Shown piece after piece: positions 1-17,640 of a stretch of DNA of 21,966 nt (its first letter is position 1; every line of letters starts with the position of its first letter). The notes below the pieces were generated by a model that was given only the letters and a program-made list of their open reading frames with translations, was not told the DNA's origin and made no database searches. The position numbers and the translations under genes were made by a program. Source of the DNA: a virus; IMG/VR virus record IMGVR_UViG_3300010150_000207, positions 1-21,966 of that record. The stretch is one strand, 5' to 3'.

Positions 1-506
1 AACTCAATTTCTTCACTACCATTTGTAGTAATCAATTTAATATAAGAAGTTCCGCCTTCATTAATATCTAATGCGGCTGCGTTATCGTCTAGTATAGTGA
101 GTGAGTTAGCTTGAGTAGCTAAGTTTAATGTTCCACCATGCTTAAGAATTAAATCTGCTGCTGATGTTATTGTTATGTTTCCGCTTGATACTGTTTTTAG
201 TTCAAAAGCTGCGGATGTAGTTGCTATAGTATTGTTAGCTCCTGTAATTACAGTAGCACCAGTTTTTAATTGGTCAATCTTACTGTCTGAGCCTACTAAT
301 ATAGCTGAACTAGGTGTTAGAGTACCAGCTGAATGGTCAAGCATTGCAACATACAAATCTCCTCCGATTGTTGTTACTGCGTTACCGACTGCCGGTGAGC
401 CTACAAATAGCTTCTGCGAATTAGAAGAATATGCTAATTCACCAGCACCTAATGAGGTAGGAGCAGCGGAGGAGCTACTTCTTTTGATTTTAATGGTTTG
501 TGCCAT
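1..506 (-). CDS. Tail fibre protein, N-terminal part (partial)
   Basis: The frame runs from the ATG at 504-506 to the left edge without a stop (about 168 residues visible), so the C terminus is outside the window. The start reads MAQTIKIKRSSSSAAPTSL, then GAGELAYSSNSQKLFVG and AVTTIGG, followed by VAMLDHSAGTLTPSSAIL, SKIDQLKTG and an Ile/Ala/Thr-rich ladder. This N-terminal pattern (basic start, GELAY...KLFVG) is common in fibres of marine phages, and resembles the N-terminal domain of the major tropism determinant family. AGGA lies 7 bases before the ATG. The role would be receptor binding at the tail tip. It is the third gene behind the internal promoter. Confidence 0.75.
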   Translation of the reverse strand, partial: MAQTIKIKRSSSSAAPTSLGAGELAYSSNSQKLFVGSPAVGNAVTTIGGDLYVAMLDHSAGTLTPSSAILVGSDSKIDQLKTGATVITGANNTIATTSAAFELKTVSSGNITITSAADLILKHGGTLNLATQANSLTILDDNAAALDINEGGTSYIKLITTNGSEEIE

Positions 507-526
507 GATTATTTCCTATCGAGCTA

Positions 527-907
527 TTAAAAGCCCCCTGCGTCTACCGTATCTGAGTCCGCTGATTCATTCCCTATCATTATAGGCACGAATTCAAAGT
601 TTCCTGTTGATGTTTCTCGGTAGATCTTTAACTGATTATCATCAGTGTCATAAAATAAATCTCCTTCCGCCAGATTTGTTGTATCTGAGGAGGGAGCTGT
701 TGTAGCAACATAAAATTGATTTGCTAGAAAGTTGAGTGCATCTTCTACGTTATCTTGTCCTCCAAGAGTTCCTGTAGGATTTGCAAAAGTAATTGTAGAT
801 GCTTCATTTGTTGAAGACGCTATAGCAGAAGAAATCGTAAGCGTAGTAGTTTGAGCAGTGGCACTTATAGAAGTTGTGCTAGGAGTTATAGTTACTGTGG
901 TTGCCAT
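527..907 (-). CDS. Fibre-like structural protein (126 aa)
   Basis: The first 50 residues are almost only Thr, Ser, Ala and Ile (VTITPSTTSISATAQTTTLT), a beta-rich low-complexity segment. Then VEDALNFLANQFYVATTAPS is followed by AEGDLFYDTDDNQLKIYRE and NFEFVPI. The GxLxYDTDxNQLKxY motif is a frequent tail fibre and collar element. It is coupled to the previous gene (TAATG overlap); 20 bases separate it from the next start. It is too short for a complete fibre, so it is likely an adaptor or fibre base. Confidence 0.65.
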   Translation of the reverse strand: MATTVTITPSTTSISATAQTTTLTISSAIASSTNEASTITFANPTGTLGGQDNVEDALNFLANQFYVATTAPSSDTTNLAEGDLFYDTDDNQLKIYRETSTGNFEFVPIMIGNESADSDTVDAGGF

Positions 908-1245
908 TATCTTGTTACATTCGGTGTAACTCTCGCTACACCCTCGATTACTCTAGTAATACTGTTTGCTGATGCATTATGTAATTCTAAATCATAATAA
1001 TATTTACCTGCTGCAATATTTGCTGTAATAGCATATCCTAAGTTCATGGTTAGTTTACCTTGAGTTGGAGCTGTTATAGGGCAAGTAAAAGTTGCTGTAA
1101 GAGTACTTGAGGTAGGGGAAGGTCTAAGTTGTGCTGATGCACTGTGATTTGATAAGTTGATTGCACTACCGTCTTCTGCAAGTGCAATTTCAAGGGCGAA
1201 ATCCGCTCCCTGGTCAATAACTATATCATATTTTCCTGCTGCCAT
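907..1245 (-). CDS. Small fibre/baseplate-adaptor protein, Ig-like (112 aa)
   Basis: The sequence fits a small beta domain found next to fibre genes in many marine phages: DIVIDQGADFALEIALAEDG, then INLSNHSASAQLRPSPT, then a C-terminal AAGKYYYDLELHN and VIEGVARVTPNV. This resembles N-terminal domains of baseplate or fibre proteins such as BppU, which provide the attachment to the tail. The start has AGGAG 6 bases before ATG, directly behind the promoter. The stop TAA overlaps the next ATG (TAATG), so the two are coupled. A virion role is likely; precise partner unknown. Confidence 0.7.
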   Translation of the reverse strand: MAAGKYDIVIDQGADFALEIALAEDGSAINLSNHSASAQLRPSPTSSTLTATFTCPITAPTQGKLTMNLGYAITANIAAGKYYYDLELHNASANSITRVIEGVARVTPNVTR

Positions 1246-1265
1246 ATTGTACTCCTATATGCTAA

Positions 1266-1294
1266 ATTATATCAAAAACTTGAGGTGATGTCAA
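1266..1294 (-). promoter_or_regulatory. Perfect sigma70 promoter with extended -10
   Basis: On the minus strand: -35 TTGACA (1289-1294), a spacer of exactly 17 bases (1272-1288), -10 TATAAT (1266-1271), preceded by TGA so that TGnTATAAT is also present (1272-1274). It lies in the longest gene-free gap, 73 bases. The expected start is near 1259, giving a very short leader that holds AGGAG (1252-1256) 6 bases before the ATG at 1245. Confidence 0.9.
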
Positions 1295-1295
1295 G
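1274..1295 (-). terminator. Weak hairpin plus T tract overlapping the promoter
   Basis: On the minus strand CTTGA (1291-1295) pairs with TCAAG (1279-1283) across a 7-base loop and is followed by five T (1274-1278). The stem has only five pairs, and part of it forms the -35 box, so it may be coincidence. If it works it would end transcription from the J and 150-residue genes just before the new start. Confidence 0.25.
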
Positions 1296-1318
1296 AATTA
1301 TTTTTGAGGGGTAGTTAT

Positions 1319-1771
1319 CTAAACTGTTGGAGCATAGTAATGTGCACCATAAAGGTCATTACACGCCTGAACTTTAAACGCGTCGAGTCTAAAACCTCCC
1401 CCTTCATTTAGTACATCCAACACCCATTGTTTCATTTGGTCTGTTGTTAAACTATTATGAGGAGTCCATCCACTAACAATTCCTGTGTACGGACTTGCAT
1501 CTCCATTTGCTCTAGATGCAGGAAAGAACCCTAGTTGGTATATTCCTGTAAGAGTTTGATCCGACTGTCCTTCTACTAAATGAGTTGCATTGGAAGTTGT
1601 TGTATCTGTTGCAGTATAACTTAAAAATACTTTATCTACAATCATCTCTAAATCTCCACAGTCTTTTGTTTCATGGTGTGAGTATGCCCAAGTAATATTT
1701 ATCTGACAATCCAAAGTTGTTGTTACTGCATTTCCATCACTATCTGTTCCTGTTTTTATTATCCAATTCAT
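1319..1771 (-). CDS. Hypothetical protein after the tail-tip gene (150 aa)
   Basis: I do not recognise a family. The protein has three Cys (DCQINITWAYSHHETKDCGD near residues 21-40 and ACNDLYG near 137), no signal peptide and no long hydrophobic stretch. The N-terminal half is strand-like (LDCQINITWAYSHH, DKVFLSYTATDTTTSNATHL), and the C-terminal half has a helix (TTDQMKQWVLDVLNEGGGF) that then returns to a hydrophobic segment FRLDAFKVQA. It begins eight bases after the J stop, with a weak AGG motif, and is followed by a 73-base gap with the only promoter in the window. An accessory tail or adhesion protein is likely by position only. Confidence 0.75.
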   Translation of the reverse strand: MNWIIKTGTDSDGNAVTTTLDCQINITWAYSHHETKDCGDLEMIVDKVFLSYTATDTTTSNATHLVEGQSDQTLTGIYQLGFFPASRANGDASPYTGIVSGWTPHNSLTTDQMKQWVLDVLNEGGGFRLDAFKVQACNDLYGAHYYAPTV

Positions 1772-1779
1772 ATTATTAC

Positions 1780-4700
1780 CTAAAATTTATCTGTCTGTTC
1801 CACGTTATGTGTTACAATGTTTTCTACAATATAAGTATCTGCATCTTCAACATTAAAGTTATAAGTTTGTACTTCTTGATTTATTCTCTGTTTACGCCAA
1901 ACTTTTTCTAGTACTAAATTATTTGTAACTAAGAAATCACCTTCTGCTATATCTTCTGCAGTTTTCCACATATATGTGTCTCCTCTTAATATTAAGAAAG
2001 GATGCTCATATGTTGCATGTACTTTTTCATTTAGTATATAGAACCATGTATAATAATCTACAAAGATTTCTTCTACTGTAGAAGTAGTTTTAGTTGTATT
2101 TACTAGTGTAGGAGCTGTCCAAGTTTTATAGGCATTTTCGTCGCTTTCACTTAAAGTAGTGTCTGTTATAGCTTCTAGTGAATCTCCAACTACTATATCT
2201 TGGACTTTTTTACTTGTACCGTCTGCCATCATTATATTTGAGCCGTAAACCAAGCAACCGCCGCCGCCGCCGCCGCCACCGCCGCCACCGCCGCCTCCAC
2301 CCGGAGGAGTTCCACCTGTTGTTAGTGTCCAACCTCTTTGGATTCCTCCAATAGTTACTGTTGTTGATTTAGCAGTTAAGTTTAAACTTGATGTAGTCAT
2401 TTGTACATTTACATAACTACCATTTGATATTTGTTGGCTACTTGTTCCAAAACTACCGTTATCGATTTTAAACTGTGCACTTCCACCCGCTATTGAAACT
2501 GTTTTTGTTCCTTGGAATCCACCAGTTACTTGTGTATTTGCGTATAGAGTAGTGCTTGTAGATTGTCCAACCAAATTACTAAAACTAAATGCAGGGTCTG
2601 TTGTACCAAATTTAACAAAATTATATTTAACAAATCCTAACTTAGAAACATTATTGTCTCCTTGAGCTGCTACATATAGATTTATTGTTCCTGTTCCTTC
2701 ATATTTAAATGAAACTGGAATCATTCCTTGTGTTCTTGAAGCAAAATCAGGGTTTGTTGAAGTACCTCCACTACTACTTGAACCTGTTACTGGAGGGAAT
2801 ACTCTAGATTCATGAATAGCATGGTCAATATTTCTACACAGTCTTGCACTAAATGGGCCAGATTCTTGTTGAGTAGCAAAAGTAACAGTAGTAGTACTAT
2901 TAGTATGTAAATTAGAACCGTCACTTACATGAAAATGTAATGTCTTGACGTGAGCTGTTCCACCTACTCCTGAAACTAAAATATTTCCTACATAATATCC
3001 TGGACCTGTGCCTACATCTCCAAGATACCTATAGTTCATATCATTATTAAAAAATGTTCCAATAGTAGTACCACTTACATTTGCTCCTGTTGAAGCTAGT
3101 GTAATATTTGCAGTTGTTAATGTACCTGCAACTGTAACATTGTTCCCTTCTAGTGTACCTTTAAATTTAGCATTTCCTGCAGTATCAATCATAAAAGTAT
3201 TAGAGGATATAAAACCATCTGATCCAAGGAGTATACCTCCAGTATTTAAGAAAGATCCGTTTCCTTGTGTGCTGTCACTAGTATTAAACTGACCGACAAT
3301 ACCTCCACCCGCTAAATGGAAAGTTGATATGCCCCATCCACCTACACCACCACCAACTACTGTTGATGAGTTATTTACTGCTGCATGGGTAACTTTTGAG
3401 TCTGCTGTACTTTGAGCTGCTGCTGCTGAGTTAGTAGCTGTATTTGCTTTACCATAAGCTTGTCCAGCTGTTGTAGCTGCTGCTGCAGCTGAGTTAGTAG
3501 CTGTGTTTGCTTTACCGTAGGCTTGACCAGCTGTTGAAGCTGCTGCTGCGGCTGAGTTAGTAGCTGTGTTTGCTTTACCAAATGCACTAGATGCTGTAGA
3601 AGCGGCTGCTGCTGCTGAGTTAGTAGCTGTGTTTGCTTTACCAAAAGCCTGACCAGCTGTTGTAGCTGCTGCTGCAGCTGAGTTAGTAGCTGTGTTTGCT
3701 TTACCAAAAGCTTGTCCAGCTGTTGTAGCTGCTGCTGCTGCTGAGTTAGTAGCTGTATTTGCTTTACCAAATGCACTTCCAGCTGTTGAAGCTGCTGCTG
3801 CAGCTGAGTTAGTAGCTGTATTGGCCTTAGAGAAAGCACTACCGGCTGTTGAAGCTGCTGCTGCAGCTGAGTTAGTGGCTGTATTGGCCTTAGTAAAAGC
3901 ACTACCGGCTGTTGAAGCTGCTGCTGCAGCTGAGTTAGTAGCTGTATTAGCCTTAGTAAAAGCACTTCCAGCTGTTGAAGCTGCTGCTGCGGCTGAGTTA
4001 GTAGCTGTATTAGCCTTAGTAAAAGCACTACCAGCTGTTGAAGCTGCTGACGCCGCTGAGTTAGTGGCTGTATTTGCTTTAGCAAAAGCACTACTAGCTG
4101 TAGAAGATGCCGCATTAGCTGCTGTAAAAGCATTGGCTGCTGTACCTGCTAGTGTTGATGTGGCTCCTGCTGTATTAAATGCTGCAACTGTTATACTTCC
4201 GCTAAAACTTCCTGTTGCGGCTTGTAGCTCTCCTTTAAATTTAGCATTACCTGCCGTATCTACATAAAATTGATTTGCTGAAATAAAACCGTCTGAGCCG
4301 AGTAAAAGTCCTCCTGTATTTAGGAAAGCAGCATTGCCTTGTGTACTATCGTTTGTATTAAAGTTACCTACAATTCCTCCACCTGCTAAATGATATGTTG
4401 TAATGCCCCAGCCTCCAACACCTCCTCCTACTATAGTAGAAGAGCTGTTTACACTTGCATGAGTAACTTTTGAGTCTGCTGTACCTTGAGCATTATTAGC
4501 TGCTCCGTGTGCTGTATTACCTTTATCAAATGCTGAGTTGGCTTGTCCAAAAGCTGAGTTGGCTCGTCCAAATGCTGAGTTAGCTTGTCCATGAGCTGTG
4601 TTACCTTTATCAAATGCTGAGTTGGCTTGTCCATGAGCTGTATTACCTTTATCAAATGCTGAGTTGGCTTGTCCAAAAGCTGAGTTTGCCTTATCGTCAT

Positions 4701-16803: not shown

Positions 16804-17603
16804 TTACCTTTTCCTTTTAGCTTCCTTTTGCTTTCTTGCTACCTCGGTGTTAATCGAGTCGGCTCTTTCTCTATCTATTGATTTCATAAAGAACACAACT
16901 GTCTTTTTATCTTCTATTTCGTAAATGTCTAGTAATTCTCCAAGACCTGACAAATTTTTTCCCATATACATACCACTCATACCGTCCCATGTATCTTGTA
17001 ATAGACTACACATAAAAAATGCCAACTGCACTTCATATGGGTATATATCTATAGCAGGAGGCATCTTATCAGGGTCGGGCTCTTGGCCTAACTGTTCGCA
17101 TACAGCGAGATATTTATCTAAGTCAATGCTTGTTTCTTTGTATTGTCTTTTTAATAAAGCAAGTATTTGTTCTACTTGCTTTTGGTAAAATTTTCTAAAT
17201 CACCTAGCATATCAGAAACCCAGCTATCAAAATCTCCAGAATTTTTTAGTAGTAATTCTGCGTTATCTGATGAAAACTCTAAACAGTCATCAGCGTTTAC
17301 GTCACTAATGTCTACTAATAAGAGCTCGTTTAAGTAAGAATACTTTAAACCTTTCCAATCTTTAATAACTGCTTTAGAGTATTCTACTAAAAATTTATCG
17401 TTATCAAGTTGCTCTTCGTATGCTCTAGTTCTTTTATTTAGAACTTGCTTTATTGCTCTGCTTCTAAGTTTTAGCAATTCTTCTCTTGCTAAGTATGTTA
17501 ATTTTACTGCGAAACCGTCCATTCCTGGAAACTCGATTTCGACTGTTTTACTTGGAGTTAATAAACTCTTCAGTGAAACTTTTGGTTGTTTTTGTTCCGT
17601 CAT
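16804..17603 (-). CDS. GT: Tail assembly chaperone, long form by -1 frameshift (lambda gpGT-like)
   Basis: The G frame is joined to a second frame by a -1 shift: bases 17603-17187 are read in the G frame, then base 17187 is re-read and translation continues to the TAA at 16804. This gives 266 residues (lambda GT has 279). After the shift the protein reads YQKQVEQILALLKRQY and continues through the Met at 17064 without a stop. The added part is helical and contains PYEVQLAFFMCSLLQDTWDG and a basic end. A separate start at 17064 is unlikely, because no Shine-Dalgarno motif precedes it and the frame is open up to the slippery site. In lambda the T part links the chaperone to tube subunits. The stop is immediately followed by the tape measure ATG. 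Confidence 0.87.
17172..17603 (-). CDS. G: Tail assembly chaperone, short form (lambda gpG-like)
   Basis: This 143-residue protein (lambda gpG has 140) lies between the tube and tape measure genes, where siphovirus tail assembly chaperones are found. It starts with a disordered lead (EQKQPKVSLKSLLTPSKTVE), then a strand pair (VEIEFPGMDGFAVKLTYLARE) and helices (ELLKLRSRAIKQVLN), with an acidic C-terminal part (VDISDVNADDCLEFSSDNAELLLKN) similar in organisation to the family. The role is to bind the tape measure protein and recruit tube subunits; it is not kept in the virion in lambda. AGGA lies 6 bases before the ATG. A slippery heptamer five codons before the TAG gives the longer GT product. 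Confidence 0.85.
   Translation of the reverse strand: MTEQKQPKVSLKSLLTPSKTVEIEFPGMDGFAVKLTYLAREELLKLRSRAIKQVLNKRTRAYEEQLDNDKFLVEYSKAVIKDWKGLKYSYLNELLLVDISDVNADDCLEFSSDNAELLLKNSGDFDSWVSDMLGDLENFTKSK
17187..17193 (-). promoter_or_regulatory. Programmed -1 frameshift heptamer A-AAT-TTT
   Basis: On the minus strand the zero-frame codons AAT TTT are preceded by A, so tRNAs can re-pair on AAA TTT one base back (an X-XXY-YYZ heptamer). It lies in the only overlap of the two frames: the new frame has a TGA just upstream, and the G frame ends at TAG (17172) four codons downstream. A Shine-Dalgarno-like AGGTG (17201-17205) lies 7 bases upstream and could stimulate the shift, as in dnaX. I did not find an obvious strong stem downstream. 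Confidence 0.85.
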
Positions 17604-17613
17604 TTTTTATCCT

Positions 17614-17640
17614 AAAAAGTGGGAGAGCCTAAGCCCTCCC
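17614..17640 (-). terminator. Intrinsic terminator after the tail tube gene
   Basis: On the minus strand GGGAGGGC pairs with GCTCTCCC (8 pairs including one G-T wobble, loop TTAG), followed by AC and five T residues. It lies between the tail tube stop codon and the Shine-Dalgarno sequence of the G chaperone gene, so it should reduce transcription of everything downstream. Confidence 0.88.

Follow-up and report, generated by a model that had tools for sequence, protein, structure and literature searches.

In a viral sequence of 21,966 nt (IMG/VR record IMGVR_UViG_3300010150_000207, hereafter the window), we identified what is very probably a marine T5-like phage promoter of sigma70 type and late class, predicted to drive the distal tail-fibre block. 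It combines exact consensus boxes, near-invariant across relatives, with an A-rich upstream box and a discriminator resembling that of other virion-gene promoters of the lineage.

Architecture and conservation of the promoter

Positions 1294..1266 of the minus strand read TTGACA TCACCTCAAGTTTTTGA TATAAT, that is, a -35 hexamer (1289..1294), a 17-nt spacer (1272..1288) ending in the TGA of an extended -10 (1274..1272), and a -10 hexamer (1266..1271). All 12 box positions match the sigma70-type definition (TTGACA, 16-18 nt, TATAAT), confirming the exact boxes of the ideal sigma70 promoter with extended -10 that an earlier sequence-only reading had proposed. The site extends beyond what that reading had stated, as a conserved AAAAATAATTC box lies just 5' of the -35 hexamer (minus strand, 1305..1295; -46..-36). 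Downstream of the -10, the sequence continues as TTAGCA-TATAGGAGTACAAT-ATG, comprising the discriminator TTAGCA (1260..1265) and a Shine-Dalgarno motif AGGAG (1252..1256), conserved as ATAGGAGTA. From its distance to the -10, transcription is predicted to start at A1260 or A1258 (1258..1260), which would give an mRNA leader of about 13-15 nt carrying AGGAG.

The promoter sits in a 73-nt gap (1246..1318) that separates the stop codon of a 150-aa gene (1319..1771, minus strand) from the ATG at 1245 of a 112-aa gene (907..1245, minus strand). The description of this gap as the only one over 60 nt depends on the gene calls: an ORF at 16804-17064, next to the T5.143 homologue, leaves 107 nt between it and the gene at 17172 (region 16804-17171), an exception that stands unless the product there is made by frameshift. 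Frameshifting is usual at this position, and the ORF probably encodes a tail-assembly chaperone of the frameshifted kind known from other long-tailed phages.

A search with the 112-aa protein retrieved 80 further loci (81 including the window), which were grouped at 95% gene identity into 38 clusters. Across these related contigs, whose counts are not independent, the promoter lies directly upstream of the downstream gene in 81/81 loci, the boxes match the consensus at 12/12 positions in 35 clusters and at 11/12 in 3 (n = 38), the spacer is 17 nt in 38/38 clusters and TGn is present in 37/38. The comparison with homologous gaps of related phages, which the sequence-only reading had proposed as a check, thus finds the boxes conserved in all 38 clusters. 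Mean pairwise differences are 0.018 in the -35, 0.009 in the -10 and 0.08 in the box at -46..-36 (37 aligned clusters). The spacer differs by 0.29, the sequence further upstream by 0.51 and the third positions of codons in the downstream gene by 0.52, compared with 1-2% in the boxes. Such a pattern is that expected of a promoter under strong selection, and this extreme conservation supports the promoter reading.

A mere chance match to the consensus was also weighed. Many weaker box matches occur in the window, in numbers not above those of shuffled sequences; the exact TTGACA-17-TATAAT arrangement, however, has a single match, against an average of 0.04 in 100 dinucleotide-preserving shuffles of the window. 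Because the boxes are near-invariant while the spacer, the upstream sequence and third codon positions vary, and since the site is placed between genes and kept in 38 clusters, a chance origin is vanishingly improbable.

Phage identity, promoter family and upstream box

Window proteins match T5 pb2, T5.143, pb6, T5.146-148 and the MCP, in T5 order; for the major tail protein the hits, at about 30% identity, are to T5-like phages of Aeromonas, Vibrio and enterobacteria. Together these matches place the window in the late operon of a marine T5-like phage, of which it covers the tail part. Long relatives also carry terL-T5.153-portal and, on the opposite strand, D2-D3-ligA-ligB-D5-D6-pri-pol-D10 to D15. 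At the DNA level, the first 2.4 kb of the window matched none of the phage records searched. T5-like contigs were also found inside MAGs of unrelated phyla, a placement that probably reflects misbinning.

The fibre promoter belongs to a genome-wide family. Summed over 19 relatives, 176 promoter matches (≤1 mismatch) were detected versus 17 for the reversed control; nearly all are intergenic and most have AAAAATARTTC upstream. Each genome has about a dozen matching promoters. Several regions are dense in promoters on both strands (G001, 85.5-92 kb; G002, 21.5-24 kb; G004, 20-23 kb; G005, 77-79.7 kb), mostly lack this box and, in G002 and G004, lie near a dmp homologue; they are presumed to be the pre-early region. 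In the long relatives (G001-G017), 21 of 130 promoters have an ATG exactly 6 nt after TATAAT, at the expected +1, as do 28 of the 46 unique T5.156 promoters among the held-out contigs L507-L586; the resulting mRNAs would be leaderless, a category to which the fibre promoter does not belong.

The closest known system is that of Escherichia phage T5 and its relatives (N25, H207, G25, J5), with which the marine set shares genome synteny, use of the host sigma70, many copies, a near-perfect -10, a 17-nt spacer and an A-tract at equal distance, AAAAATTTA/TCA preceding a TTGCTT-type -35 in T5. In a T5-like coliphage the same A-tract/-35 layout has been described, with consensus TTGCTw / TATAATA and AAAAATT near -43 (PMC3326045). 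The marine promoters differ in their -35, TTGACA instead of the TTGCTw that is typical of the coliphages without being universal there (some T5 promoters have TTGAC), and in their upstream box, AAAAATARTTC. With a T5-like genome, an A-tract near -43 and many near-consensus promoters (counted in relatives, the window being a fragment), the fibre promoter is best read as a lineage variant of the T5-type set and not as a Tequintavirus-style promoter. It adds to the already known T5-type promoter system a new member distinguished by its -35 and its upstream box.

AAAAATARTTC occupies -46..-36 upstream of most promoters of the long relatives, where T5 has its A-tract, and in the window (AAAAATAAT) it falls on the A-rich position of a UP element proximal subsite (about -46..-38). 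The window matches 6 of the 8 specified bases of the consensus for this subsite, AAAAAARNR, and the box fits a UP-type contact for polymerase. A UP element has been described in T5 N25 (PMC12464699). In clostridial genomes the same 40-nt arrangement stands directly before a tRNA gene in 9 of the 25 loci checked, which were found through a pattern search and so show occurrence, not frequency. Some of the strong tRNA promoters in low-GC bacterial hosts carry an identical AAAAATARTTC-TTGACA-17-TATAAT, differing in being cellular; the arrangement therefore need not be phage-specific, and a view of the box as a phage signature is weakened.

Alternatively, a phage regulator of timing, either an activator or a repressor, could bind the box. 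The box is unusually exact, including a TTC at -38..-36 that a UP element does not need, and presumed pre-early promoters mostly lack it. Early and late promoters both carry the box, however, which led us to reject it as a separator of these two classes, and the clostridial tRNA promoters indicate that the layout can be a generic feature of strong promoters. A regulator site is accordingly improbable, and a UP-type contact of the polymerase alpha subunit is preferred.

Discriminator signature and timing class

In the discovery set, an A occupies -6 in 68/71 early-region promoters versus 1/27 virion-gene promoters. As this pattern was seen after the fact, it was tested on previously unused contigs, upstream of the early genes pri and ligB and the late genes T5.153 and T5.156. 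There, A at -6 was found in 50/50 early and 12/65 late promoters, and AT at -6/-5 in 46/50 early and 0/65 late promoters; nominal Fisher values (3e-21 and 7e-28) are overstated, the sequences being related, and the four gene families agree. One group of early-region promoters breaks the -6 rule with a T (G003 5592, G004 28902, G005 71331) and is followed by GTAAGTG...CACTTAC, possibly a small structured RNA.

Each of the 37 aligned clusters has a T at -6 in the fibre promoter, which lacks an ATAT discriminator and stands, like T5 late promoters, ahead of virion genes on the late strand; by its discriminator it looks late-class. The suggestion that it might act early is therefore unsupported, the T at -6 matching other virion-gene promoters and not early ones. 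The annotated T5 late promoter G25, which has an A at -6, counts against this assignment.

The literature on T5 discriminators was read only after the held-out test. The discriminator is reported to be the main difference between early and late T5 promoters, ATATT being present in every early one, and gpT5.026 to weaken the polymerase contact at this element, shifting the early/late balance (PMC7472727). The marine -6/-5 pattern, seen in a distant relative, agrees with this T5 difference. Searches of six relatives with phmmer and with phrog_4215 gave no gpT5.026 homologue, a further difference from T5 and a point against the late-class reading. We consider it possible, though somewhat short of an even prospect, that -6/-5 forms a deeply conserved T5-like early/late code (AT early, otherwise late), retained in a marine lineage whose proteins are about 30% identical to those of T5. 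If kept without a detectable gpT5.026, the code would have to be read by another factor or by the polymerase itself. How T5 switches from early to late with one host sigma70 polymerase for all classes has been stated to be unknown (PMC7472727); the marine set comes from a distant, independent lineage whose early and late promoters are nearly identical apart from one or two discriminator bases.

Firing early or throughout infection is an alternative to late timing, given that full consensus boxes with an upstream element need, in principle, no activator or other helper. The discriminator is nevertheless of the late type, without AT at -6/-5. T5 itself keeps its late genes silent early, through DNA entry in two steps and through changes to the host polymerase, which also argues against early or constant activity, and we regard it as unlikely.

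The distal fibre block and its expression

The genes below the promoter are syntenic among relatives. The 112-aa protein matches phrog_1084 (9e-26) and phrog_3304 (4e-20; annotation: L-shaped tail fibre assembly); a 126-aa gene follows (527..907, minus strand; weak PHROGs match, syntenic in relatives), and then a fibre-like gene of which the window contains just the start (3..506, minus strand; phrog_15769, 4e-23, and synteny of relatives). In the longer relative G003, the genes next in line lead to large fibre-like proteins, from 59.1 kb down to about 48 kb. Above the promoter, the 150-aa gene and the C-terminal part of a J-like protein form an exchangeable module present in only about a third of relatives. 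The fibre block stays with its promoter while upstream genes are exchanged.

The conserved site might alternatively be a joint at which exchangeable tip and fibre modules recombine, and not a promoter. Two loci (L054, L055), compared with window 907-1771, are 87-89% identical upstream and 62-71% downstream, with the mosaic junction inside the promoter, at about the -10. Against a joint, the spacer and flanks vary while the boxes and spacer length stay constant, and the same boxes recur at unrelated genes, so that this explanation appears highly unlikely and a promoter remains the favoured reading.

Host RNA polymerase would thus use every standard contact, from the A-rich upstream element through TTGACA, the 17-nt spacer and TGn to TATAAT, to begin a short-leader mRNA with a Shine-Dalgarno motif that opens the distal fibre block. 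In G003 the nearest late-strand promoter upstream precedes T5.153, 25 kb away. Because late-strand promoters are few, with a single exact one in this 22-kb stretch, the promoter may serve to supply fibre mRNA at a point about 25 kb beyond the portal-region promoter. The separate expression of the fibre genes, as first proposed, is plausible: the placement allows it, the block keeps its promoter and the genes are of fibre or fibre-assembly type. Such a promoter would work with whichever upstream tip module the phage carries, and we infer that a strong private promoter would give stable fibre-block expression whatever that module. T5 likewise has annotated promoters within its tail region (P-G25 and P-J5), but G25 lies between pb2 and T5.139, whereas the marine promoter stands directly before the distal fibre block.

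An offset of attenuation at upstream terminators, also suggested initially, is possible. No terminator was found directly upstream of the promoter in the window. A possible attenuator lies 16 kb upstream, in the form of a stem-loop that follows the major tail protein gene (17621..17640, minus strand). G001, G002 and G003 retain a stem, though in G001 and G002 its sequence is entirely different; a T-run, present in the window and G003, is missing in two of the four lineages.

The J-like protein (2825 aa) has further features of its own. About 12 tandem repeats of the TATNSAAAAASTAGSAFTKAN type span window 3375-4133. At its end (window 1780-2300, minus strand), a poly-Gly run (about 2258-2300) accompanies a Cys-led domain (...VTHNVEQTDKF) that looks Hint/intein-type, although Pfam reported no such domain at 0.001; this C-terminal domain occurs in about a third of relatives, mostly near 33% identity.
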